32,335 nt of DNA from a virus, in the IMG/VR virus record IMGVR_UViG_3300035670_000853, positions 1 to 32,335 of that record. One strand, written 5' to 3'. Shown piece after piece: positions 4,266 through 31,535 of the stretch. Under the pieces are notes generated by a model. It worked only from the letters and a program-made list of their open reading frames with translations. It ran no database searches and was not told where the DNA came from. Within the stretch, counting starts at the first letter, position 1, and each line of letters begins with the position of its first letter. Position numbers and translations under genes: made by a program.

Positions 4266-5242
4266 AAAATGTGGTGTCCTAAGGTTTTATCCAATTCTTC
4301 CCGAATTTTTAATCTTTCCTCAAAACTTAAACCCCCATAGTTGTAGCCCCTTCTTTTCAAGCTAAAGTAAAAGTCCGCTCCGTCCATTTCAATATTAGCT
4401 GGGTTAATAGTTTCTAAAAATATTCTAACGATTTTTCTAAATTGCGGGAAAAACAGTAGGAAATTGATAAATAACTTAAATAGTTTTAACTTGTCGTGGA
4501 TATGATTGGCTCGGCTAATACCAATATCCAATAAGCGATTAACCTCTTTTCTCAAATTTTGCCCCAGCTTTTTCTTATCTAATTGACTTAAAATATCTTG
4601 AAGCGGAAACAAATAAGCATTATCTGCAAAAAATACTAAAGCCACCGAATCAATTAAAACGTCTAAAGTATATCTAACTACCTCGCCTACATTATAAATA
4701 ACAAATTTATCTTGCTTTAAATGTTGAGTAGCTTCTCTTAACCCTTTAACTAATTCCTTAATCGGCAAGGAAAAATCACTGTCTTGAATTTTCCAAAATG
4801 GAAAAGGATATTTTAATTGGATTAAATGAGCATAACTAATTAAAGCATAACGTCTTAAACCCTTTTGACTTAAAAATATCGGGATTAGGAAGGGAAATCG
4901 TGTCATTAGTTTTATATCTTCAATCCAAACTCGTTTTACAACTGCCACGTGGTCTATAATATCTTTGTCTATAAAACCATTTAAAAGAAACGAACATCCA
5001 ATAATTTTTGTTTTAGCGCCGTCAGTTGTATGAATAATTTCTTCTTCAAACCCGTCGCAACGATCTTCGTCCCCAAAAATTCCTTCCAATCGCTTACAAC
5101 TGCCTTTTTCTTTAATTACTCGGCGCACTTCTTGGTCTATCCACTTTCTATTTTCATCAGTAATTTCAATACCACCTTTTAATCCATTTAACCATTTTTG
5201 TCTTTTAGTTTCTAAATTTTGTTGGCCTTGAATAGTTATCAT
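4262..5242 (-). CDS. Hypothetical protein between terL and portal (326 aa)
   Basis: I do not recognise this protein. It is overlapped by terL at its start and by a micropeptide at its end, so it belongs to the packaging/portal operon. It has an N-terminal charged region with a Cys-containing stretch (CKRLEGIFGDEDRC), a helical middle, and a hydrophobic helical segment near residues 250-275 (LFKLFINFLLFFPQF) that may be a membrane or buried helix. No nuclease or ATPase motif is visible. Location between terminase and portal could mean a role in head-packaging or membrane-associated assembly, but this is only positional. Confidence 0.75.
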   Translation of the reverse strand: MITIQGQQNLETKRQKWLNGLKGGIEITDENRKWIDQEVRRVIKEKGSCKRLEGIFGDEDRCDGFEEEIIHTTDGAKTKIIGCSFLLNGFIDKDIIDHVAVVKRVWIEDIKLMTRFPFLIPIFLSQKGLRRYALISYAHLIQLKYPFPFWKIQDSDFSLPIKELVKGLREATQHLKQDKFVIYNVGEVVRYTLDVLIDSVALVFFADNAYLFPLQDILSQLDKKKLGQNLRKEVNRLLDIGISRANHIHDKLKLFKLFINFLLFFPQFRKIVRIFLETINPANIEMDGADFYFSLKRRGYNYGGLSFEERLKIREELDKTLGHHIL

Positions 5243-6477
5243 CTAGCTGGATTGGGTTTGGGCTTAGATTCAAAACGAGGTAAAGTTTCTAAGTATTCTT
5301 TACGTCTTTGTACAGGAACTAGGCTACAAATTTTATATGAAGCCGCGTCTATGGAGTGATCTGCTCCGTCATATTCTCCTGGAATTACAACCCCCGTTCT
5401 TTTATCAACCTTTTTTCTAAAATTATTAAACTCTCTTATGGTATTTATGCTTCTTCTAGTGATAGCAATCTTTAAATCTTGTAAAGTCTTAATCCTAAAT
5501 CTTTTAGAATCGCTTCCTTTTACGCACCCAATTATATTTACTCCAAATCCTTTTATCTCATCTATGGCTTTTGGTTCTGCTGAATCTGCAACACAAACCG
5601 CGTGTTTATTAATTAAGACATTGGCCAAGTCACTATTGCGCAAATGATTGGCATAAATTAACTCGTCTATGATGTATTCTCCGTCTAAATAATAAATATC
5701 GTCTATACAAGCCGGATCAGGATCATAGCCAAAGTCTAATCCGGGGCCTTCGTATCTTGCTTGCTCTGGAACGTCATCAATAATCCTAAAACTCAATAAC
5801 TTCCCATCAATAGCGGTTTCTGGCTCGCCTAACCATTTGTGCTTATATAAATTAGGTCTTTTTTCTTTATCATCTTCTATTTCCAATCGGATATTTTCTG
5901 GTAACCAACCATATTTTTGCGCAACGTCATAGTTAATATTAATAACTAAAGTATTTGGTCTGCCTTCAATTACTAAACGCTGATGGACTGGATCATCTTC
6001 TAATAAGCGGTTATAGGTGTAAATTATTTGCGATCCTTCTTTTCTAACGGTTGGCGTTAAAATTTCAATGCTATTTTTACTTACTGTTTGAGCCTCTTCC
6101 ACCCACGCAATATCAATGCCTTCAATAGATTTTATGCTTTGCTCGTTATGGTAAAGCCCCTTAAATATAAAATCCGAACCATTTATTTTATTAATGATTG
6201 AATTATTAGTAATGTCAAAATCGGTTAATTTATATTGTCGGATTAAATCTGAAAGTAATTGATAAGAACTATCGGCAATCGAATTTTGAAATTCCCTAAA
6301 ACATCCAATCCTTGTTTTTTGTTGTCTAGCTCGAATAAGTAAAAACCTGGCAACAGTATGAGACTTTAAAGAATATCGTCCTCCGTAAATAGCGGCTTCT
6401 CGCCAATCCGAGTCAAATAATCTTTTAAACTCAACTGGAATTTGAATTGTTATTGGTTTTGTCCCCGGATTTAACAT
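5239..6477 (-). CDS. terL: Terminase large subunit
   Basis: This 412-residue protein is the packaging motor ATPase and nuclease that cuts concatemers and pumps DNA into the prohead. A variant Walker A lies at residues 32-39 (GGRYSLKS), Walker B at 123-128 (IAWVEE, with the catalytic Glu), and a coupling-like motif near 150-157 (QIIYTYNR). The C-terminal RNase H-like nuclease has its acidic residues at D248 (GLDFGYDP), D298 (VADSAEP) and D370/D373/D377 (GEYDGADHSID). Length is usual for a phage terminase. It overlaps the preceding zinc-ribbon gene by 47 bases and the next gene by ATGA. The ATG has an A-rich leader and no SD. Confidence 0.95.
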   Translation of the reverse strand: MLNPGTKPITIQIPVEFKRLFDSDWREAAIYGGRYSLKSHTVARFLLIRARQQKTRIGCFREFQNSIADSSYQLLSDLIRQYKLTDFDITNNSIINKINGSDFIFKGLYHNEQSIKSIEGIDIAWVEEAQTVSKNSIEILTPTVRKEGSQIIYTYNRLLEDDPVHQRLVIEGRPNTLVININYDVAQKYGWLPENIRLEIEDDKEKRPNLYKHKWLGEPETAIDGKLLSFRIIDDVPEQARYEGPGLDFGYDPDPACIDDIYYLDGEYIIDELIYANHLRNSDLANVLINKHAVCVADSAEPKAIDEIKGFGVNIIGCVKGSDSKRFRIKTLQDLKIAITRRSINTIREFNNFRKKVDKRTGVVIPGEYDGADHSIDAASYKICSLVPVQRRKEYLETLPRFESKPKPNPAR

Positions 6478-13146: not shown

Positions 13147-14013
13147 TCAAAGGAATATTTTTTGCCTTTCACGGCACTCATCTTTGTTAAAGTTTAAATA
13201 TTTAAAAGAAGTGATTGGAAATTCTCCACTATGGCCCAATACAAGTTGTACATCTTTCACGGTTCCTCCGGCTTTTAAAATTCTGTGTGCTTTGGCATGT
13301 CTGTAACTATGGGGTACAACATTGTTTTTTACTCCCGCCTTTTTACACATAGACTTAACCCATCTTTCAATCGTTCGGTTATTAACCCTCTCCCCCGTTC
13401 CGCATTTTTCAACAGAGATAAAAAGAGCTTCACTCAAAAAATTTTTTCTTGCTTGTAAATATTTTTTTAAAATTTCTGATGTTTTTTCGCCATACCAAAC
13501 CCATCGCCATTGTTTAGATTTTTTTGTAAGAACGTGAAAACATTTGTCTTCGCAAATCTGCCGAATATCTAATTCACATAGTTCAGAAACTCTCATGCCG
13601 GTGTCCCATAAAAGATTGTGCATTAAACGTTTAGCTAAGTTGCGTAAATCATTTCCTCTTACCGATATATCCATAAATTCAAAATCAATATCTGATAAAA
13701 CTTCATGTGGAGTAGCATATGATCTTGCAAATTTTATATTAACTGGGTTAATGAGAATATTCTCTCTTTCTCCGACGTGGAATTTTATAAAATCTCTTAA
13801 AACAATAATAAAAAATCTAGGAGAACTACGATGATATTTTTTGTAAAGATCATTTTGAAAATTACTTATGATTTCCCAATTTATTTTTTCTATATCCCCA
13901 CAAAAATTTTCTGCAAATTTATATAGGGCCATTTTATAACGCTCCAAACTTCGTGGGTTGAGGTAACCGCGTTTATACGCCAAATATTTTCCTATGGCTT
14001 CTATTGTTTTCAT
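13147..14013 (-). CDS. int: Tyrosine recombinase / integrase
   Basis: The start is set at ATG 14011-14013 (MKTIEAIGKYLAYKRG). A longer frame exists upstream, but its DNA folds into several hairpins and follows a promoter, so it is more likely leader. In 288-residue numbering, an N-terminal SAM-like core-binding domain (about 1-100) precedes the catalytic domain. Catalytic residues are R141 (DTGMRVSELCEL), K164 or K165 (LTKKSKQ), H235 and R238 (PHSYRHA), H261 (LGHS) and the nucleophile Y272 (FKYLNF). It would integrate or excise phage DNA, or resolve dimers. No attP can be identified by eye. No CI-type repressor is present nearby, which is unusual for a temperate phage. Confidence 0.9.
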   Translation of the reverse strand: MKTIEAIGKYLAYKRGYLNPRSLERYKMALYKFAENFCGDIEKINWEIISNFQNDLYKKYHRSSPRFFIIVLRDFIKFHVGERENILINPVNIKFARSYATPHEVLSDIDFEFMDISVRGNDLRNLAKRLMHNLLWDTGMRVSELCELDIRQICEDKCFHVLTKKSKQWRWVWYGEKTSEILKKYLQARKNFLSEALFISVEKCGTGERVNNRTIERWVKSMCKKAGVKNNVVPHSYRHAKAHRILKAGGTVKDVQLVLGHSGEFPITSFKYLNFNKDECRERQKIFL

Positions 14014-14143
14014 AATGCACAAAACCCACCGTGCAACCGATGGGCTTGTTGGGTTTCCCCTATTGTGCCGTTCCAACCCTTTTTCAAGGAATTGGGCGTA
14101 TAAGTCCCCTTGCAAGGAGACCTGCATAAACTTACGTTTATAC
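14014..14143 (-). other. Structured leader of integrase
   Basis: The predicted 130-base 5' leader contains hairpins CTCCTTGCAAGGGG, a CCAA...TTGG stem with GAAA loop, and CCCATCG/CGGTGGG. It also holds CAATAGGGGAAACC at 14051-14064, shared with the next gene upstream. It could instead encode an N-terminal extension of integrase. Confidence 0.45.
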
Positions 14144-14149
14144 AAGTCT

Positions 14150-14155
14150 ATTATA
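14150..14155 (-). promoter_or_regulatory. Integrase promoter, extended -10
   Basis: TGTGCTATAAT on the minus strand (TATAAT at 14155-14150) contains the extended -10 TGnTATAAT. The -35 is poor. Predicted start is near 14143. Confidence 0.5.
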
Positions 14156-14220
14156 GCACAAAACAAACATCTAGTTGCACTCCTTTTTGAGGATAGATGT
14201 ATTAATTAAATTTTAATTAA

Positions 14221-14249
14221 AAAATACTACTAAATGACAATAATGTCAA
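14221..14249 (-). promoter_or_regulatory. Promoter with operator-like inverted repeat over the -35
   Basis: Consensus TTGACA (14249-14244), 17 bases and TATTTT. The -35 is embedded in TGACA-TTAT-TGTCA, a 5-bp inverted repeat that could bind a dimeric regulator. A long TTAATTAAA/TTTTAATTAA palindrome follows. Confidence 0.5.
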
Positions 14250-14287
14250 GGGGAGATATTAATTTGTTAACATTAAAATTTTTATAA

Positions 14288-14746
14288 TTATTTTATTAAT
14301 CCTATTTCTTTTAACCTACTTTTAACCTTTTCTGCATAGGCAAAATTGGGGTTATTCGGGGAATTATATCGGGCAAAAGCAAGAGTTTTATTTTCCTTGT
14401 AGCCATATTTTATAAGAAGTTCACAAACATATTGAGCTTCTTTTTCTATGTCCCCGATTATTTGTTTCCGGGCCGGATCAGCACAATGGTTTAGGTGAAA
14501 ATATCCATTACTGCATCCGCCGTCACCTGATTGAAATTTACCAAAAGAACTTTCTTGGATAGAAATTGCAATTAAGTCATTTGGATCAAGTCCATTTCTT
14601 CTGGCGACTTTAGTTATTATTTGTTTGGGCGTATCTTCTTCAACAATTTCGGGATTATCTTCGGCCCGAATTTGGATCGAACGACCTGGAATTAAAATTA
14701 TTAAAGAGCAAACGACGATTACAAACACTAATATTTTTTTCTTCAT
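14288..14746 (-). CDS. Secreted lytic transglycosylase-like protein
   Basis: The 152-residue protein has an N-terminal signal/anchor (KKKILVFVIVVCSLIILIPG, residues 2-21) and a lysozyme-like transglycosylase domain. ITKVARRNGLDPNDLIA leads to IQESSFGKF with the likely catalytic E65, followed by SGDGGCSNGYFHLN and a later FARYNSPNNP, in the usual order for soluble lytic transglycosylases. It should cleave peptidoglycan from outside the membrane. It stands apart from the main endolysin, next to integrase, so it may be a virion-entry, signal-released lysis or superinfection factor. Its leader has a 9-bp hairpin and the AGGGGAAAC motif. Confidence 0.8.
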   Translation of the reverse strand: MKKKILVFVIVVCSLIILIPGRSIQIRAEDNPEIVEEDTPKQIITKVARRNGLDPNDLIAISIQESSFGKFQSGDGGCSNGYFHLNHCADPARKQIIGDIEKEAQYVCELLIKYGYKENKTLAFARYNSPNNPNFAYAEKVKSRLKEIGLIK

Positions 14747-14844
14747 ATCTCGGCGACATAAAGAGTTTGGGTTTCAGGTTTCCCCTACTGCGTCCCTCTG
14801 TTGTCCGCCTACAAAACCCGCATAAGTTTTGTAGAAAGACAACA
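14747..14844 (-). other. Leader of transglycosylase gene with hairpin
   Basis: CTACAAAAC (14809-14817) and GTTTTGTAG (14826-14834) form a perfect 9-bp stem. CAGTAGGGGAAACC (14778-14791) lies 32 bases before the ATG. No gene is seen in the interval. Confidence 0.45.
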
Positions 14845-14951
14845 TTATTTTTTCAATTCAATTTTTTCATAACATTTTTCACAATGCCATTTTCCTTTTA
14901 TTAAATATTTGGGTTGCGGGTGCTACCGCATTTATTACATTTTTGTTTCAT
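14845..14951 (-). pseudogene. Zinc-ribbon gene split by -1 frameshift
   Basis: From ATG 14949-14951 the frame gives MKQKCNKCGSTRNPNI and stops at TAA. The -1 frame continues as KYLIKGKWHCEKCYEKIELKK to a TAA at 14845 (given without the join). Together they make a complete CxxC...CxxC zinc ribbon of about 35 residues. The switch point is C CCA AAT, which fits the X XXY YYZ slippery heptamer for programmed -1 frameshifting. Alternatives are a true pseudogene or an indel. No clear stimulatory hairpin follows. Confidence 0.5.
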
Positions 14952-14970
14952 ATTTTTATCCCCTTCCCCC

Positions 14971-15058
14971 AACCTATTACGAGGTTAGGAGTTAACATGA
15001 TTTCTCAATCCCAAAAGATTGAGGGAAGAGGGGCGAATGTTTTTTAAGCACTCGCCTC
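14971..15058 (-). other. Three consecutive hairpins
   Basis: Between the 57-residue zinc protein and the split zinc-ribbon gene lie three stems: 15028-15039 with 15049-15058 (about 10 bp with a two-base bulge), CTCAATC/GATTGAG (15004-15023, 7 bp), and AACCT/AGGTT (14971-14986). No U-runs follow, so an mRNA-stabilising or processing region is as likely as termination. Confidence 0.45.
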
Positions 15059-15064
15059 GTCAAA

Positions 15065-15238
15065 TTATTTGCAACTTAAACAGAGCGTCGTGATTATCTT
15101 GAATTTGCCCTTTCTCCTTTCCAGCTCCTGAATTTGCGGTTGAGTTAAGGTTCGCCAGACAAGGTGTTCCTTATACTTACCGCATTTTTGACAGCGAAAC
15201 AGAAGAAACTCTTGGTTTTTTAGGTCTTTCCTGTGCAT
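15065..15238 (-). CDS. Small zinc-ribbon protein (57 aa)
   Basis: ATG 15236-15238 is preceded by a strong SD (GGGAGGTGAG, five bases before the start). The product has CQKCGKY near residues 16-22 and CLSC at 54-57, so the CxxC pairs sit at the two ends of a helical middle (TLTQPQIQELERRKGKF). It is a zinc-ribbon of unknown role. It ends the higher-GC operon that begins at the phosphoesterase gene, right after the HNH-like gene, and may work with it on DNA. Confidence 0.65.
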   Translation of the reverse strand: MHRKDLKNQEFLLFRCQKCGKYKEHLVWRTLTQPQIQELERRKGKFKIITTLCLSCK

Positions 15239-15241
15239 ATC

Positions 15242-15445
15242 TCACCTCCCTTCTAAAAAAGATTTGAGAGTATTGCGATAAAATCTCAAGGGCTTTTTTT
15301 CTTCTACGGGAATGAGCTGTTCAATGGCATCGTGGCAGTCTCGGCAGAGTTTGATAACGTGTCGCATTCTGAAAAATCTCTTCGGAAAAATGTGGTGCCG
15401 TGTCAATTTCTTGCGTTGTTTACATTTGGGACACCACCCGTGCAT
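15242..15445 (-). CDS. Small HNH-like protein
   Basis: The 67-residue protein has CPKC (residues 5-8), RHHIFPKRFF and LCRDCHDAIE, the zinc-binding and His-Me arrangement of HNH endonucleases. The usual catalytic-site Asn before LCxxCH is not obvious (HVIKLCRDCH), so nicking activity is uncertain. Small phage HNH proteins can assist terminase cutting, act as homing enzymes or serve in defence evasion. It follows the zinc-ribbon gene without a gap, with GGGAG as SD. It is much smaller than typical homing endonucleases and no intron is seen. Confidence 0.7.
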   Translation of the reverse strand: MHGWCPKCKQRKKLTRHHIFPKRFFRMRHVIKLCRDCHDAIEQLIPVEEKKPLRFYRNTLKSFLEGR

Positions 15446-15721
15446 TTAGCACTCTCCCTTGACTGGATAACAGAATGGGCAGGTGTTTGTTTCTACGATA
15501 ACTGCATCAATTGTCATCAGGTCCCTGAGGACTTGCTCGGAAAGCACAAACCAACGGGACAGAGTTTTGAGGCTAGTGATAGTTCTGCGGACAAAGAACA
15601 TTTCGTGGCAATGAGTGCAGGAAACAAGAATATGAGTCTTGAACTCGTGCGCACACTCATCACACATCGGAATACCCTCGCAGACTACCGTTGCCTCCTT
15701 ATTGTCAAATTGGCATCTCAC
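15446..15721 (-). CDS. Multi-zinc-site protein (91 aa)
   Basis: The start is GTG 15719-15721, with a very strong SD (AAGGAGGAAAAA), coupled to the upstream stop. Cysteine pairs occur as MRCQFDNKEATVVC, MCDEC, SCTHCHEMF and TCPFC, enough for about two zinc sites in a cross-brace or tandem ribbon layout around a basic middle (RRTITSLKTLSRW). It may bind nucleic acid or protein. Unlike most genes in the window, it uses a strong SD and has higher GC, as do its neighbours. Confidence 0.65.
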   Translation of the reverse strand: MRCQFDNKEATVVCEGIPMCDECAHEFKTHILVSCTHCHEMFFVRRTITSLKTLSRWFVLSEQVLRDLMTIDAVIVETNTCPFCYPVKGEC

Positions 15722-15978
15722 TTTTTCCTCCTTTCCAATCGTTCTTTAAAATCGTTTTTAAGCTGTTCCTTTTTTCGCCAACGAATGAAACCCCAGCAGT
15801 TAAAACAGAAATAAACTATCTGCACCGCTAGCATTGGATATACTTCCTTATAGTAGGTATACCAAAGCCAGTAGCAACAGGTTATCTGAAAAACTATAAA
15901 GGTCTCTTTGCGCTGGTGGACTGCTAACGTCAATCCCAGAATGTTAAGAACTACGATTAACCACGCTAGTAGTTCCAC
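15718..15978 (-). CDS. Three-helix membrane protein, PnuC/SemiSWEET-like
   Basis: GTG start with an excellent SD (GAGGAGGTAAGAA). The 86-residue product has three membrane helices: LLAWLIVVLNILGLTLAV, an aromatic-rich FQITCCYWLWYTYY, and MLAVQIVYFCFNCWGFIRW followed by a positive tail (KERLERRKK). The ending YF..NCWGFIRWRKK resembles the last helix of PnuC nicotinamide riboside carriers and of SemiSWEET half-transporters, which work as dimers. A role in NAD precursor or sugar uptake is possible but only by resemblance; it is too short for a full PnuC. Confidence 0.7.
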   Translation of the reverse strand: MELLAWLIVVLNILGLTLAVHQRKETFIVFQITCCYWLWYTYYKEVYPMLAVQIVYFCFNCWGFIRWRKKEQLKNDFKERLERRKK

Positions 15979-16054
15979 TTCTTACCTCCTCTTCTTCATA
16001 ATGGTTTAAATCAGCTTGCTCGGGAATTGCATCGTCATCAAATAGCCAATCCAT
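15944..16054 (-). CDS. Possible small acidic peptide (36 aa)
   Basis: ATG 16052-16054 follows GGAGGAAAAAG, a good SD. The 36-residue frame is acidic at first (DWLFDDDAIPEQADL) and contains NHYEEEEV. It overlaps the DUF3310 gene end by 17 bases and the membrane gene start by 35, which lowers confidence. The strong SD and acidic, non-random composition support it. Confidence 0.4.
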   Translation of the reverse strand: MDWLFDDDAIPEQADLNHYEEEEVRSGTTSVVNRSS

Positions 16055-16259
16055 CTTTTTCCTCCATTTCTATCATGAGTTCTAAGAAGTGTTTGGCCTT
16101 TTTTAAATCAGCCATACCTCCTTTCTTTCGCCAGCGGCAAACATATTTAATTACTGCTCCTTCCATAAAAGGAATTTGGTTCTTATGGCAGAATTCCACT
16201 ACCTGAATTTTCATATCCAAATAGTGGTTTCCGCCAATTTGATTCTCTAAAGCACTCAT
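16038..16259 (-). CDS. DUF3310 family protein
   Basis: The 73-residue protein matches the DUF3310 pattern well: IGGNHYLDMKIQVVEF, then QIPFMEGAVIKYVCRWRKKGG and DLKKAKHFLELMIE (each a separate block). The family is common in phages of many hosts, often annotated as a nucleotide kinase-like or unknown small protein, and its true activity is not established. The start has no SD, unlike the rest of the island. An 8-bp hairpin lies upstream. Confidence 0.85.
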   Translation of the reverse strand: MSALENQIGGNHYLDMKIQVVEFCHKNQIPFMEGAVIKYVCRWRKKGGMADLKKAKHFLELMIEMEEKDGLAI

Positions 16260-16304
16260 TTTAATTTTGAATTTATGTTAATAATTATTATACTTTTGGT
16301 GGGG

Positions 16305-16328
16305 GGAGGTGGTTTTTAAGCCACCTCC
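16305..16328 (-). promoter_or_regulatory. Strong hairpin between phosphoesterase and DUF3310 genes
   Basis: GGAGGTGG and CCACCTCC form a perfect 8-bp GC-rich stem with an 8-base loop. On the minus strand no U-run follows, so it may be a processing or translation-control element. AGGAGG is hidden in the stem. Confidence 0.5.
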
Positions 16329-16332
16329 TCTG

Positions 16333-17133
16333 CTATTTGAAGAAAGGAATGAAGGTGGGAGTAACTGCTACGATGCTTTTTTTCTTATCATTGGCAACCC
16401 GGACTTTTACAGTCCATCCACCGATTGTTGGGTTTAAACCCTTCCTCAAAAGATAAGTGCTTTGATCCTGAAAACATCCTGCCTGGAGAGTGTGGATTAG
16501 TCGGTAGAAAAAGTAAAAGCTGATGTGCCAATGCCCAAAAATCATGATATGTGGTTTCTTGCCCGACGGAATCTGCTCAAGGATCTTTTGTGGTTTGTAA
16601 CTAATGGCGTATGCGCCCCCACTTTCCCCATGGTGCAACCGAATGACTACTCCGTTGAGGATTACATCTCCTTGATATTGGCCCAAATAAACCATGTCGG
16701 GACGCCGTTGACTGATGAGTTCGCCGACTTCAATACCTGCATTATTCCACCAGCAAAGATCGTGGTTACCGGTAATGAAATGCGTTGTTACGCCATTTAC
16801 TTTCGGATAGTTGTTAATAACATATTGAACCTGATTCATCGCTCCGAAAGTATGCACTTCATTTTCTTGGCCACGAAAGATCCTCCATCCGTCTAAAACA
16901 TCGCCGGAATGGACAATGTGCCTAATCCCCTCTTTGGCGCAAATCTGGTAGAAGGTATGGAGTTCATCCATCCTAGCCAGCTTTGAGCAAAAATGGGTAT
17001 CAGATACAACCCCGAATTTGAGAACATTGTTGGAAATGCTATCTTGAATGATTTTGGGTTTGTACTTTTTTTCCCCTGCTAAGCGCTTAAACTCTTGTCT
17101 TGAAACTCCTAATTCTTTCAGTAAGTCTTTCAT
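16333..17133 (-). CDS. Calcineurin-like metallophosphoesterase
   Basis: The 266-residue protein has the full metallophosphoesterase motif set in order: D45-x-H47 (VVSDTHFCS), GDVLDG with D78, GNHD with N123 and H124, LHHGES with H167/H168, and GHWH with H201 and H203, binding two metal ions. The first 20 residues are a small helical start (LKELGVSRQEFKRLAGEK) that may bind DNA. Substrate is unknown: phage relatives act on cyclic nucleotides, nucleotides or DNA ends. Cyclic oligonucleotide anti-defence activity is possible but not shown. ATG with GAGGGAAGAA before it. It heads the higher-GC block. Confidence 0.85.
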   Translation of the reverse strand: MKDLLKELGVSRQEFKRLAGEKKYKPKIIQDSISNNVLKFGVVSDTHFCSKLARMDELHTFYQICAKEGIRHIVHSGDVLDGWRIFRGQENEVHTFGAMNQVQYVINNYPKVNGVTTHFITGNHDLCWWNNAGIEVGELISQRRPDMVYLGQYQGDVILNGVVIRLHHGESGGAYAISYKPQKILEQIPSGKKPHIMIFGHWHISFYFFYRLIHTLQAGCFQDQSTYLLRKGLNPTIGGWTVKVRVANDKKKSIVAVTPTFIPFFK

Positions 17134-17170
17134 TTCTTCCCTCGCTTTCTTATTAAATTGTTAAATTTCT

Positions 17171-17203
17171 AAAAAGGACTTGCGCGGGGACTACACAAGC
17201 CCC
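17171..17203 (-). terminator. Intrinsic terminator after lysis genes
   Basis: Minus-strand GGCTTGTG and CGCAAGTCC pair with one bulged base, followed by TTTTT. It separates the endolysin/holin pair from the phosphoesterase operon. Confidence 0.55.
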
Positions 17204-17213
17204 TTTCAAAAAT

Positions 17214-17489
17214 TTAAACTGCGTATTTCCCTAATTTTCCTGCTTTAAACACCTTTGCTCTTGCCCAACCAAAAATAAAAAATCCAGCCGAAACAATAGT
17301 TCCAAAAGCAGAAACTACATTCACAATTTGGAAAATAAGAATATCAATATCTTCTTGGACAATTGGAGATCCCATTAAATTTGAAATGAGAACAATAACT
17401 GGTGCTAATCCAATTAGAAAAGATTTTACTCTTAATGACATTCCATCTCCTTGCGAACTTAGTAAAAACTTATAAATCGTGTCCCACAT
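17214..17489 (-). CDS. Two-helix membrane protein, holin candidate
   Basis: The 91-residue protein has two membrane helices (SFLIGLAPVIVLISNLMG about 23-40, and IFQIVNVVSAFGTIVSAGFF about 52-72) and a basic C-terminus (RAKVFKAGKLGKY). This is the size and layout of a class II-type holin. It directly follows the endolysin gene, the usual lysis pairing. An internal Met at residue 17 could give a shorter dual-start product, as known for some holin/antiholin pairs. AAAGGTCG stands 18 bases upstream. A second, better-recognised holin lies at 26566-26997. Confidence 0.65.
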   Translation of the reverse strand: MWDTIYKFLLSSQGDGMSLRVKSFLIGLAPVIVLISNLMGSPIVQEDIDILIFQIVNVVSAFGTIVSAGFFIFGWARAKVFKAGKLGKYAV

Positions 17490-17513
17490 AATAGTAAAAA
17501 AATTAAACGACCT

Positions 17514-18767
17514 TTAAGCTGAGAACTTTTTATATAGACCTTTGTTATAACAAACCCAATCTCCTAGCCCTCTTTTTTTGTATTGCTTAATCATTTCTCT
17601 AATACACTTTTCTGGGTTATTAAATATTTCTTCTTTGGATGAAAATAACTTGCCTTCCCCTGCCCACCATTTAGAGTTCCATTGGCAAATTCCCCAATCA
17701 TAAGTTCCGTCTGTATTTTTATGCTCGGCTTTGGGGTTATAATCACTCTCGCAATGAACAACTTGAGATATTAAAGTTTTTTCATTCCAATTTAATCCTT
17801 CTTCGTCACAAATAACTCTAACTGAATGACGACAATTTTGGGGCGTGTCCCATAAATATTTTGATGTTTCAACCTTAACTTCTTCAATTTGCGTTTCTAT
17901 TTGTGGCGATACAAATTCGTTAACTGTTTGCTTGGTACTTATTAACATTTTCCATAATTCAATTAGGGCATTAATACACTTTTGCGCAAAGCTAATTTGT
18001 TCTTGAATGGTAGGATCTTTTTTCTTTAGCCAAATTCTTTTGGCTTGTTGAAAATCATAGTTCCAATCCAATTCTTTTATAAAATCCCCTTCACTTTCTG
18101 GATAGGTGTCAAAAACAAACCAAGACTTTCCTTCATCGGCTTTAAATAGGCAGACAAAATGGTTGTCTTGTGATCCGGCTGGCTTTATATATTTGTCCCC
18201 TTCTTTTTTCCAGGCCATTACAGAAATAGCGACCGGAGAATACATCAAGGCGTCTAGTATAATTTTTTGTTTTTCTTCTATGAAGGGATTTCCCGTCCAT
18301 AAATATTCATGCTTGAAGTCAAATTGTTTTAACCATTCTTGGCCTTTTTGTTTTAAATTTTCTGCTAAAGGATCAGGACTGTAATATTTTTCAATAGTGT
18401 CTATGGAGTCATTAAAAGGCAACAAACTTTCATTGACTAATCCTGTTTTTCTTATGGCTTCTCCAACTGTATGGGGAGAATTGCCCGGGGGACGAGTTCC
18501 GGCAGAAATCCCCGTAAATCTATCTGAAAAATTTTCTAATTTATCGGTTATGCGATTAATAAAAATTTCTATAGTGTTTAAAAAGGCAAAGCCCGTGCAA
18601 TTGCAAGTTTCTACATTGTTGCGTCTTTGATATTCTTTGCTTGGGAGCCAATCAGCCCAATCTCTATTCGGGCATAAAACTTCTCCCTGGATTGGTGAAA
18701 CCCCAAAAATATAATCTTCTTGCTTCGGCTCTTCTAAAATTAATCCGTAGTTTTTGATTTTTTCCAT
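17514..18767 (-). CDS. Two-domain endolysin: papain-like peptidase plus lysozyme-like domain
   Basis: The N-terminal half (about 40-230) looks like a papain-like cysteine peptidase: catalytic C57 in CNCTGFAF, a GNSPHTVGEAIRKTGL segment, H203 in QDNHFVCLF, and D220 in WFVFDTYPE. The C-terminal part (about 305-417) is lysozyme/transglycosylase-like with E340 in VVHCESDYNP and TYDWGICQWN. Together they could cut both peptide and glycan bonds of the wall. There is no signal peptide, so release needs a holin, which fits the membrane gene just downstream. Such a combination is uncommon. Confidence 0.75.
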   Translation of the reverse strand: MEKIKNYGLILEEPKQEDYIFGVSPIQGEVLCPNRDWADWLPSKEYQRRNNVETCNCTGFAFLNTIEIFINRITDKLENFSDRFTGISAGTRPPGNSPHTVGEAIRKTGLVNESLLPFNDSIDTIEKYYSPDPLAENLKQKGQEWLKQFDFKHEYLWTGNPFIEEKQKIILDALMYSPVAISVMAWKKEGDKYIKPAGSQDNHFVCLFKADEGKSWFVFDTYPESEGDFIKELDWNYDFQQAKRIWLKKKDPTIQEQISFAQKCINALIELWKMLISTKQTVNEFVSPQIETQIEEVKVETSKYLWDTPQNCRHSVRVICDEEGLNWNEKTLISQVVHCESDYNPKAEHKNTDGTYDWGICQWNSKWWAGEGKLFSSKEEIFNNPEKCIREMIKQYKKRGLGDWVCYNKGLYKKFSA

Positions 18768-27064: not shown

Positions 27065-27982
27065 TTATTCCCACCATATAATTTGCATTTGATTTGTGGC
27101 TAATACTGCGCTTGTATAACTAATAATTACCACCCCCGAACCTCCTAATCCTCCTCCTGGTGCTGCATTTCCTTCTCCACCACCACCACCGCCACCACCT
27201 GTGTTGGCTGTTCCACTATTTCCCTGTACTGCTCCTACTGAACCTGCACCTCCTCCACAAGTAGCTGTCCCTGCGGTTGTAGCTGGATAAGCTCCTCCTC
27301 CACCACCACCTGCATAACAAACTGATGCTCCCGAAATTGTTGATGTATAACCAGCTCCACCTGCTCCTGCTACTGTTTGCGTGGCGTTTGAGCCAGCCGC
27401 ACTTGCACCACCCCCACCAGCTCCCATATAAGTTGGACTTGCAAAACCTGTTCCACCGCCATATACGTTTGAACCACTACCTGCTCCTGCTCCTGCTTGC
27501 CCTGCACTTCCTCCACCTCCTGAACCACCACTTGTTGGGCTTTGGGCTGAGCCAGATGGGCTTGGGTTAAAACCTCCTCCCGCGCCGCCACCGCCATAAG
27601 CAGTTATTGAACCAAACGAAGAATTACCACCATTCCCGCCCGCGGTATTTGTTGTTCCGCGTGTTCCACCAGATCCAATAACTACTGAAATAGTATTACT
27701 TGCATTGTAAGAGGCATTATATTCAACACTTCCACCACCACCACCGCCACCATCCCAATGGCCACCACCGCCTCCTCCAGCCACAACCAAAACTTCTACA
27801 TTCTGGCTACCCTTTCCAGAACAATCTAAAGTTGAACTTGAATTAAATGTGTGGATAGTTTTCCCCCCCGAGTAAGTTATAGTTCCACCCGTACAATCAG
27901 CCGAAAAAGCTCCATAAGAAATCTTTGGAATAAATATTGAAATCAAAAATGTTATTAAAATTATTGATAAATATTTTTTCAT
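27065..27982 (-). CDS. Secreted glycine-rich adhesin-like protein
   Basis: ATG at 27980-27982 (MKKYLSIILITFLISIF) overlaps the methyltransferase stop; a start six codons earlier is possible. A signal peptide ends near ISYGA. The rest is dominated by glycine runs (up to nine), with TIHTFNSSSTLDC and VVIISY blocks like the glycine-rich domain of phage adhesins and bacterial surface proteins, and likely forms a polyglycine II-like sandwich. Similar tips recognise receptors on phages such as S16. A signal peptide is unusual for a virion fibre, so it may decorate the host surface or be a mimic of a host protein. It sits in the fibre region. Confidence 0.75.
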   Translation of the reverse strand: MKKYLSIILITFLISIFIPKISYGAFSADCTGGTITYSGGKTIHTFNSSSTLDCSGKGSQNVEVLVVAGGGGGGHWDGGGGGGGSVEYNASYNASNTISVVIGSGGTRGTTNTAGGNGGNSSFGSITAYGGGGAGGGFNPSPSGSAQSPTSGGSGGGGSAGQAGAGAGSGSNVYGGGTGFASPTYMGAGGGGASAAGSNATQTVAGAGGAGYTSTISGASVCYAGGGGGGAYPATTAGTATCGGGAGSVGAVQGNSGTANTGGGGGGGGEGNAAPGGGLGGSGVVIISYTSAVLATNQMQIIWWE

Positions 27983-28590
27983 TTTTTTACTGTTATCCAA
28001 TCCTCATCTATAATGTCATATTTAAGATTGTTGGCTTTTATAAAATCTACTACTGGATAAAATACCCCAGGAATTCTAAAATCATGTCCCGACAAAATTC
28101 CTTTTTTTTTGAGTAGTGGATAGTAGTTCTTAATATCTTTTTTTACGAATTTTGAATCGTGGTTTCCGTCTATATAAACAAAATCCAATTTACCTTTTAT
28201 GTCTTTATATGCCTCATCTGAAAACTTATGAATCCACACAATCTTATCCTCATATGGCTTTAATCTTAATTTAGCGGTTATCTTTGCTGTATCTAATAAT
28301 TTCTGATCAGATTTATTCTCTGTTCCACCAATACTTTTTTCATATTCTTTAGTGTTTTGGTATGGATCTATCAAATATAACTTCTTAATCGGCAAGTGCT
28401 TTAAGATATTTAAAGCGTTCTCTGCTTCCCAAACCCCCACTTCTGCTCCGGTTAGCTCTTTGCCCTTTAAATACTTTCCATATTTAAATTGATGGATAAA
28501 TTGAATAAACCCTCGTGGATAATAAACATTTATATTAATTCCAAATAATCTTAAAAATTTTTGTATATAAAATTTAAACTGCCTAATCAT
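27979..28590 (-). CDS. Class I SAM-dependent methyltransferase
   Basis: The 203-residue protein has a Rossmann-type pattern: motif I GAEVGVWEAENA (about 48-59), motif II acid D75 in LYLIDPY, and FVYIDGNHDSKFVKKD (about 138-153) with LLKKKGILSGHDF, as in the Methyltransf_24 / sugar O-methyltransferase group. DGNH and GHD would bind a metal as in cephalosporin hydroxylase/MycE-like enzymes. A carbohydrate or surface-polymer target is likely because it lies between two surface-protein genes. The start overlaps the upstream gene by eight bases. Confidence 0.8.
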   Translation of the reverse strand: MIRQFKFYIQKFLRLFGININVYYPRGFIQFIHQFKYGKYLKGKELTGAEVGVWEAENALNILKHLPIKKLYLIDPYQNTKEYEKSIGGTENKSDQKLLDTAKITAKLRLKPYEDKIVWIHKFSDEAYKDIKGKLDFVYIDGNHDSKFVKKDIKNYYPLLKKKGILSGHDFRIPGVFYPVVDFIKANNLKYDIIDEDWITVKK

Positions 28591-30668: not shown

Positions 30669-31535
30669 TTAAGCAACGTTAACATCAAAGATCACAGGTT
30701 TGGTTTTGGCCCATACCTTAGTTTCAAAGTCAACCCTGGAAACAACTGCAATACCTGAAGTGCTAGCTGGATCTTTTTCGTCAACCACTATTTGCCCATA
30801 GGTATCTTTTAAGATTCCGATGTGGATTAATTTCTTAACCCCGGCAACAACGTGGTTAGCAGATAAAAGATTAGAAGCATAGTGAGTAAGACCCATATAA
30901 TTTACTCCTTGTCTTGCTCCGTCTCTTAGCGCCTGGTCGGCAACTACAAAACCATTAGCCATCATAAATCCTTCAAGTAGCTCAAAATCTGCTGGTCTCC
31001 ATACAACGAATCCTCCATTTCTTTGCAACAAAGTGTCTCCGGCTGCTACGCGAATAACTCGCTTGATGTGTCGGATAATGTCATCAATGTTGGTTGAAGA
31101 AACTGTAATTTGAGTAGTATCTGCGACTGAACCACCAGTAATATCACCGGAACCGAAGTTGGTCATATTGGCGTGGTTAGCATAGATAGCAGTTTCGATT
31201 GCTTCGTTGAGCAATACGCCTTGCCTTTTAGCCAATTCCATTTGTTTTGTATAAGTGGATTGTGCTAAATCTGCTCTATCAATAAACACTGGCACAATTT
31301 TTGATGTGCTGATGGTTACTGATTCATCTGTTTCTGTGAAGGTGCTGTAGGTGTAAGCAGTTCCTCGTTGATTGGTTTGAACTGCAGGATCAGTAAAATA
31401 AGGATTGTGGAGAACTCTTGTATTGCTGATTTCAACATTACAAATATCCTTCCAAAAAATCGGCTCATCTAACTCTTCCTGAAGTTTTTCTGCCCAATCT
31501 TCTGCATAAACAACTGTATTAATTGCTGTAGCCAT
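30669..31535 (-). CDS. Major capsid protein (HK97-like fold)
   Basis: The 288-residue protein has the usual N-terminal arm, then TYSTFTETDESVTISTSKIVPVF and DRADLAQSTYTKQMELAK (pieces of 20 residues or less apply: TYSTFTETDESVTISTSK and DRADLAQSTYTKQ), an A-domain with VAAGDTLLQRNGGFVVWRP, and VSRVDFETKVWAKTKP near the end. This is like capsid proteins of environmental podoviruses. It follows the scaffold gene and precedes the adaptor. The leader is AT-rich without an SD, which is surprising for the most abundant virion protein. A possible stabilising hairpin stands after its stop. Confidence 0.85.
   Translation of the reverse strand: MATAINTVVYAEDWAEKLQEELDEPIFWKDICNVEISNTRVLHNPYFTDPAVQTNQRGTAYTYSTFTETDESVTISTSKIVPVFIDRADLAQSTYTKQMELAKRQGVLLNEAIETAIYANHANMTNFGSGDITGGSVADTTQITVSSTNIDDIIRHIKRVIRVAAGDTLLQRNGGFVVWRPADFELLEGFMMANGFVVADQALRDGARQGVNYMGLTHYASNLLSANHVVAGVKKLIHIGILKDTYGQIVVDEKDPASTSGIAVVSRVDFETKVWAKTKPVIFDVNVA

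Follow-up and report, generated by a model that had tools for sequence, protein, structure and literature searches.

A segment of six minus-strand genes (positions 15065–17133) was analysed in the window, that is, the whole 32,335-base stretch of IMG/VR virus record IMGVR_UViG_3300035670_000853. The segment is read here, with a probability of roughly 0.6, as a moron-like accessory cassette of several sources in a temperate phage, which moves as cargo and encodes a nuclease or phosphodiesterase. Phage morons are accessory genes with their own control and a foreign composition that lie between phage modules. Together with phosphoesterase cassettes rich in Shine-Dalgarno (SD) sequences elsewhere, the segment suggests a travelling accessory cassette. 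An earlier note on this DNA had proposed an acquired cassette. Acquisition is supported by GC content at third codon positions (GC3), SD strength, hairpins, absence from 80 terminase-related loci (in the parts covered) and recurrence in unrelated carriers; one cassette from one donor is not, the segment being a mosaic.

The phage is tailed. Profile scans found genes including those for terminase (5239–6477), the major head protein (30669–31535) and integrase (13147–14166), together with a DnaD-like loader, an exonuclease and lysis-side genes, and the minus strand carries the listed genes of the window. The segment is flanked by lysis-side genes (17214–18767) on one side and by transglycosylase-like and integrase genes (13147–14746) on the other. 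The phage is read as temperate and probably infects Patescibacteria. The genes and hairpins of the segment are listed below in order of transcription; SD strength is given as the anti-SD pairing energy with the 3' end of 16S rRNA, and hairpins were compared with 200 shuffled sequences.

17165–17215, minus strand: terminator-like hairpin at the upstream border, near-perfect, with a U-rich 3' side (-24.5 kcal/mol, z -6.1, 0/200 shuffles as good).
16333–17133, minus strand: metallophosphoesterase of 266 amino acids (aa), DP1/Mre11-like (Pfam Metallophos_2 1e-9, PDB profile search, AlphaFold model, Foldseek, VIA-align); SD pairing -13.0 kcal/mol.
16295–16340, minus strand: following the phosphoesterase gene, a GC-rich hairpin whose 3' tail is C-rich (-15.3 kcal/mol, z -3.6, 0/200 shuffles as good).
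16038–16259, minus strand: DUF3310 protein of 73 aa (Pfam PF11753, 8e-11), without an SD (+1.7 kcal/mol).
15718–15978, minus strand: membrane protein of 86 aa, like the N-terminal part of PnuC (Pfam PF04973, 5e-8); GTG start, SD AGGAGGT (-14.0 kcal/mol).
15446–15721, minus strand: CxxC protein of 91 aa with a weak homologue in locus L098; GTG start, SD AAGGAGG (-16.2 kcal/mol).
15242–15445, minus strand: HNH-like zinc protein of 67 aa with the motifs CxxC, T-R/K-HHIxPxR and LCxxCH (PHROG 8446, 4e-5); SD pairing -11.6 kcal/mol.
15065–15238, minus strand: CxxC protein of 57 aa (weak Zn_ribbon_8 match, 0.17), SD GGAGGTG (-20.2 kcal/mol).
15005–15068, minus strand: tandem hairpins after the last gene, at the downstream border (-17.4 kcal/mol, z -2.6, 5/200 shuffles as good).

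The earlier note had placed a GC-rich island at 15065–17133, and both direction and coordinates were right, although its figures of 45% against 30% overstated the contrast: GC content was 41.8% in the segment and 34.9% in the rest of the window. The GC-richest stretch of the same length (2069 bases) in the whole window was 14957–17025, practically the same place. The raised GC is carried by the third codon position. From 17133 downwards, the GC3 of the six genes was 0.46, 0.38, 0.46, 0.53, 0.49, and 0.50, while the other 37 listed open reading frames (ORFs) had a median of 0.27 and did not exceed 0.35 (Mann-Whitney p 5e-5). The ORF set, drawn up by hand, comprised 43 ORFs of the minus strand; it omitted all plus-strand ORFs and the nested ORF 27370–27597 and included the 57-aa ORF 15065–15238. 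A second GC rise, at 27.1–28.0 kb, was a coding effect, because the ORF 27065–28000 has a GC content of 0.67 at second codon positions and a GC3 of only 0.21.

Overall, SDs are scarce in this phage. Five of the six segment genes paired at -11.6 to -20.2 kcal/mol, and none of the 37 other ORFs fell below -10.1 kcal/mol, even at their best alternative starts (p 4e-4 on best starts). The claim of strong SDs unlike those of the neighbours therefore stood for five genes and fell for DUF3310, which reached only -4.8 kcal/mol at its best alternative start. An exact 5-base SD match was found in 3/6 segment genes vs 2/37 others (p 0.014), a weaker contrast than that of the energies. GTG starts were commoner than in the neighbours, as had been claimed (2/6 vs 2/37). 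An earlier SD test with greedy ORF picking, in which antisense ORFs had displaced three of the six segment ORFs (1/3 vs 3/39, p 0.27), was replaced by the hand list.

Relatives of the segment were searched for in phages, genomes and plasmids. None of the six proteins was found in any of 80 terminase-related loci, within the parts of the loci covered (862 kb, partial flanks). On presence or absence in relatives, which the earlier note had named as a check, these covered parts showed none of the genes, and no exact empty site was seen in a close relative. No DNA relative of the segment, near or distant, was found in annotated phages, and the HNH-like and PnuC-like proteins had no match there. 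For the phosphoesterase, relatives were found at 2 viral loci in one scan and 12 in another (overlapping), and at 36 loci in bacterial and archaeal genomes; no match was found in plasmids. The single annotated phage with a relative was Halorubrum tailed virus BLv36.

Several SD-poor phages with phosphoesterase relatives (L002, L089, L100/L101, L087/L088) showed the same SD contrast. With cassette borders chosen after looking, SDs of at least 5 bases were present in 3/3 cassette genes vs 8/57 other genes in genome G001 (locus L002), 4/4 vs 7/39 in G011 (L089), 5/5 vs 1/10 in L101, and 5/5 vs 1/11 in L100; the last two are not independent because they hold the same cassette. Under a fixed rule (the phosphoesterase gene and two genes on each side), p was 0.07 for the window, 0.029 for G001, 0.062 for G011, 0.054 for L101 with part of L100, and 0.026 for L087. 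L088, which is nearly identical to L087, was left out, and the five contigs combined gave p 6e-4 for SD and 3e-3 for GC3. Among 11 control loci (Bacillota and others), p was low in L109 (0.004), L090 (0.009) and L092 (0.043), not low in seven, and not computable in one. In the Bacillota loci, SDs were common throughout.

Relatives of the phosphoesterase were also found within inserts in two Patescibacteria chromosomes from small genomes; gene names here (rseP, proS, mreB, ftsK, rpmF, nusB, rnc) are those that we presume from our own reading of the translations. In L098, a contig of a 0.6-Mb genome, a four-gene cassette of 1.9 kb with the phosphoesterase lies between rseP and proS, and a strong terminator-like hairpin follows its end. 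The GC3 of its phosphoesterase gene is 0.70, vs 0.50 for rseP and 0.46 for proS. In relatives, the rseP–proS gap is about 45 bases (L144, L146, L149) or 264 bases (L148). In this family, proS was present in 11/11 genomes and rseP also in the loci of four relatives, and none of the cassette genes was found in the loci of ten relatives. The chromosome genes of the family are SD-poor (6/56 at or below -11 kcal/mol). In L108 (Patescibacteria), about 3 kb with four genes, the phosphoesterase last, lies between ftsK and rpmF; the SDs of these four genes range from fairly strong to strong (-9.8 to -15.9 kcal/mol). Its relative L167 has about 100 bases between ftsK and rpmF, and the loci of the other relative have no rpmF in view. 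The phosphoesterase was sporadic: it was present in 2/379 genomes of the phylum including the seed, and in 1/11 and 1/3 genomes of two families, the seed itself each time. By eye, the cassette in L098 (1032–2905) seems to have entered without disrupting a promoter-like TTGACT-TAAAAT ahead of proS.

These results bear on whether the segment could be a set of ordinary phage late or packaging-side genes whose composition reflects chance or gene type. In several phages the phosphoesterase gene does have terminase or lysis genes close by, and an odd composition is common among small phage genes. That the GC3 of all six genes exceeded that of all 37 others, that the genes were absent from the covered parts of all 80 terminase-related loci, and that phosphoesterase cassettes occur as chromosomal inserts make this explanation very improbable.

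In the phosphoesterase tree, the window enzyme paired with that of L002 (support 96/98). A wider group (99/99) held the window, L002, L098, L089, L087/L088, L101, and the long-branched L123 (Chloroflexi), with branches of 0.35–0.9 changes per site for most members; Bacillota, Thermosipho and L108 fell outside it. The tree thus indicates that the likeness of the cassettes in SD-poor carriers did not come from one recent gift of a Bacillota phage, and a Bacillota origin as a simple answer was not supported. It was kept in a broader form, as a plain recent transfer from phages of an SD-using host of higher GC (e.g. Bacillota), with SD and GC3 being memory of the donor and not function. Bacillota prophages do have phosphoesterase relatives with SDs throughout, one of them (L102) carries PnuC-like and HNH genes near the phosphoesterase, and GC3 rises together with SD strength. 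However, the window enzyme is not nested in Bacillota but groups deeply with SD-poor phages and a Patescibacteria chromosome, and repeated independent events would be needed for L002, L089, L100, and L098. Such a transfer is a possible explanation, though an unlikely one. Two readings are left for the cassette genes: they are exchanged within a pool that has a composition of its own, or selection maintains their signals.

Under selection on translation, strong SDs would be kept for SD-favouring ribosomes (e.g. those lacking bS21, as in Flavobacterium) or for high output. Work on Bacteroidota describes ribosomes without bS21 that favour SDs in Flavobacterium (PMC9976891), and by analogy makes it conceivable that selection maintains strong SDs in hosts that are SD-poor. 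The contrast recurred in five contigs despite deep divergence, and the energies of the strong-SD segment genes overlap the range that this paper calls exceptionally strong (below -13), although the two sets of energies were computed differently. Selection on SDs leaves the raised GC3 unexplained, the chromosomes of the L098 family sometimes use strong SDs themselves, and anti-SD blocking of the Bacteroidota kind was not seen in these hosts. Selection of this kind is considered improbable.

Several results weigh against the reading of the segment as a travelling accessory cassette. The promoter scan gave 10 sites vs 12.4 expected, which is no excess. Its terminator pattern called none of the hairpins of the segment, those at the borders included, and two of them are without a classic U-tract. 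No attachment-site-like repeats or target duplications were found at the borders; the repeat families were chance-like, and none was present at both borders. Taken by itself, the window gave a weak result under the fixed rule (p 0.07), since two genes of the lysis side and DUF3310 are counted under that rule. The neighbours of the phosphoesterase vary between carriers, so that what moves may be single genes rather than a cassette. Identity between the enzymes of the window and L002 is only 62%, and the SD and GC3 contrast is therefore not the trace of one recent event. In L098, two of the four cassette genes, which start only a few bases from the stop codon of the gene before, have weak SD energies (-5.6 and -6.1 kcal/mol), and the contig belongs to a low-coverage metagenome-assembled genome (cov 2.24).

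The phosphoesterase named by the earlier note was confirmed by a Pfam match above the cut-off. A profile of eight phosphoesterases searched against PDB gave DP1, the small subunit of the archaeal DNA polymerase PolD, first (3e-11). Two motif regions align with DP1, including the C-terminal GHxH region and the following Q-QT-F stretch. The AlphaFold model had a mean pLDDT (predicted local distance difference test) of 80.5, with low confidence at residues 84–95 and 172–179. Its best Foldseek match was DP1 (1.3e-10), and VIA-align gave DP1 a Z of 18.8 with a root-mean-square deviation of 3.0 over 209 residues, followed by Mre11 (Z about 16); these rows leave room for other phosphoesterase families. 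The motifs DTH, GD, GNHD, H168, and GHWH are intact. In alignment A2 (eight rows), D45, D78, N123, H124, H168, H201, and H203 were invariant, and the DxH histidine H47 was kept in 7/8 rows, with Q in L108. These D, N and H residues are taken to be the metal ligands of the family.

The enzyme thus resembles DP1, the 3'-5' proofreading exonuclease of PolD, and Mre11 in the fold of the catalytic, calcineurin-like nuclease domain and in the metal-site motifs. It differs in that only residues 33–266 align, and these to the C-terminal part of DP1. The N-terminal region of DP1, an oligonucleotide/oligosaccharide-binding (OB) fold, is absent from the 266-aa protein. The window has no named DP2 or Rad50 gene, and PHROG scans that covered 20 further genes of the window named no DP2 partner. 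The enzyme shares its fold with many viral entries in BFVD. From the phage calcineurin-like phosphoesterases, some of which bear the annotation 'DNA polymerase II small subunit', it is set apart by its short N-terminus and by the company of HNH-like and CxxC genes. Judged by its modelled fold, it may work on its own as a metal-dependent 3'-5' DNA exonuclease or phosphodiesterase, in the manner of DP1 and Mre11. The metabolic function that had been raised was not supported, the nearest folds being DNA nucleases. For the anti-defence function that had also been raised there was no evidence; PADLOC, run against models of known anti-phage defence, gave weak matches only (best E 0.002–0.03), none convincing.

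Among the other proteins, DUF3310 was identified as the earlier note had it. The three-helix transporter-like protein was PnuC-like above the Pfam cut-off; it matched profile positions 2–72 of 175, the first part of PnuC transporters, and at 86 aa is not a whole transporter. The HNH and zinc-ribbon matches lay below the Pfam cut-offs, and the HNH assignment is backed by PHROG 8446 and by recurrence. In the HNH-like protein, HH and CxxCH were kept in 3/3 aligned sequences and the central N was not conserved. Its gene follows the phosphoesterase gene in the window, L003 and L089, with protein identities of 47–48% to L003 (8824–9051) and 33% to L089.

On the origin of homologues, which had been left for checking, the answer was mixed. 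The nearest proteins to DUF3310 were from Pseudomonas phage PseuP_224 (69%) and a Bordetella phage (63%). The PnuC-like gene had a weak relative in a Caldicoprobacter prophage, and the CxxC gene 15446–15721 one upstream of the phosphoesterase in L098 (tblastn 25.6% over 86 aa, E 0.001). A metallopeptidase-like partner gene in L087/L088 and (by eye) L098 is without a counterpart in the window. Since the partner genes vary, and since DUF3310 lacks an SD and points to other phages, the segment is regarded as a mosaic in which the phosphoesterase is the constant element.

Patescibacteria are a likely host of the phage on sequence grounds. The genomes behind L098, L100 and L108, the last of them Patescibacteria, drew the same sample of the phylum. 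In G196, a genome of this sample, a piece of a related terminase (48% over 94 aa) lies next to a relative of the portal protein, with a relative of the major head protein on another contig. In the terminase-based host test, 4/379 genomes matched with a best identity of 43%, which is not decisive alone.

The upstream border hairpin lies after the lysis-side gene 17214–17489 and before the phosphoesterase gene. In three hairpins (16295–16340 in the window, and 680–710 and 1580–1605 in L002), the 3' arm enters a C-tract (CCUCCCCCC) that could in principle pair with SDs. C-tailed hairpins after the cassette genes of the window and L002 were considered as a shared signal, which was dropped because similar hairpins occur elsewhere in G001 and G011. 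A strongly structured leader (14750–14870, -32.7 kcal/mol, z -3.1, 19-base stem) lies just upstream of the transglycosylase-like ORF 14288–14746; neither this leader nor any other part of the window gave an Rfam family at the gathering score. On the lysis side, 17514–18767 encodes a long lysozyme-like protein, a relative of which (32% over 228 aa) adjoins the phosphoesterase cassette of L089; a separate scan of viral contigs with this protein found no relative.

As a moron-like cassette, the segment could be expressed apart from its neighbours, because terminator-like hairpins bracket it. Translation without the usual SD-poor signals of the phage would be possible, because five of the six genes have strong SDs of their own. 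Such insulated cargo could be read and translated wherever it lands, and would move with a changing composition round the stable phosphoesterase. The phosphoesterase would trim or cut DNA, and the HNH-like and CxxC proteins may act as nucleic-acid-binding or cutting partners. Their target may be DNA that is foreign or damaged, and either the lysogen or the phage in its rivalry with others may profit. The segment is like phage morons in a GC3 and SD use unlike the rest of the phage, in its terminator-like borders, in its place between the lysis side and the integrase, and in its absence from the covered parts of terminase relatives. It differs from them in that SD-rich cassettes like it are present in several carriers, chromosomal inserts among them, and in that no promoter of its own was found.

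What is of interest is the wider pattern, in which phosphoesterase cassettes rich in SDs recur in phages that are otherwise SD-poor and as inserts in Patescibacteria chromosomes. A literature search recognised no description of such cassettes or of SD use in Patescibacteria phages. It is conceivable, but a long shot, that they form an undescribed class of small mobile cassettes of Patescibacteria and their phages, centred on a DP1-like nuclease and joined by HNH-like and CxxC proteins. Their own strong SDs would let them be made, possibly by a ribosome subset, in hosts where genes and phages rarely use SDs, and they would serve as portable cargo in anti-phage defence or competition between phages. 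Little is known of the accessory cargo that Patescibacteria phages carry. A cassette that retained translation signals of its own in SD-poor phages and chromosomes alike would be a clean natural test of how SD strength is used in such hosts. Its DP1-like enzyme offers a tractable candidate for an accessory nuclease with a role in competition between phages.

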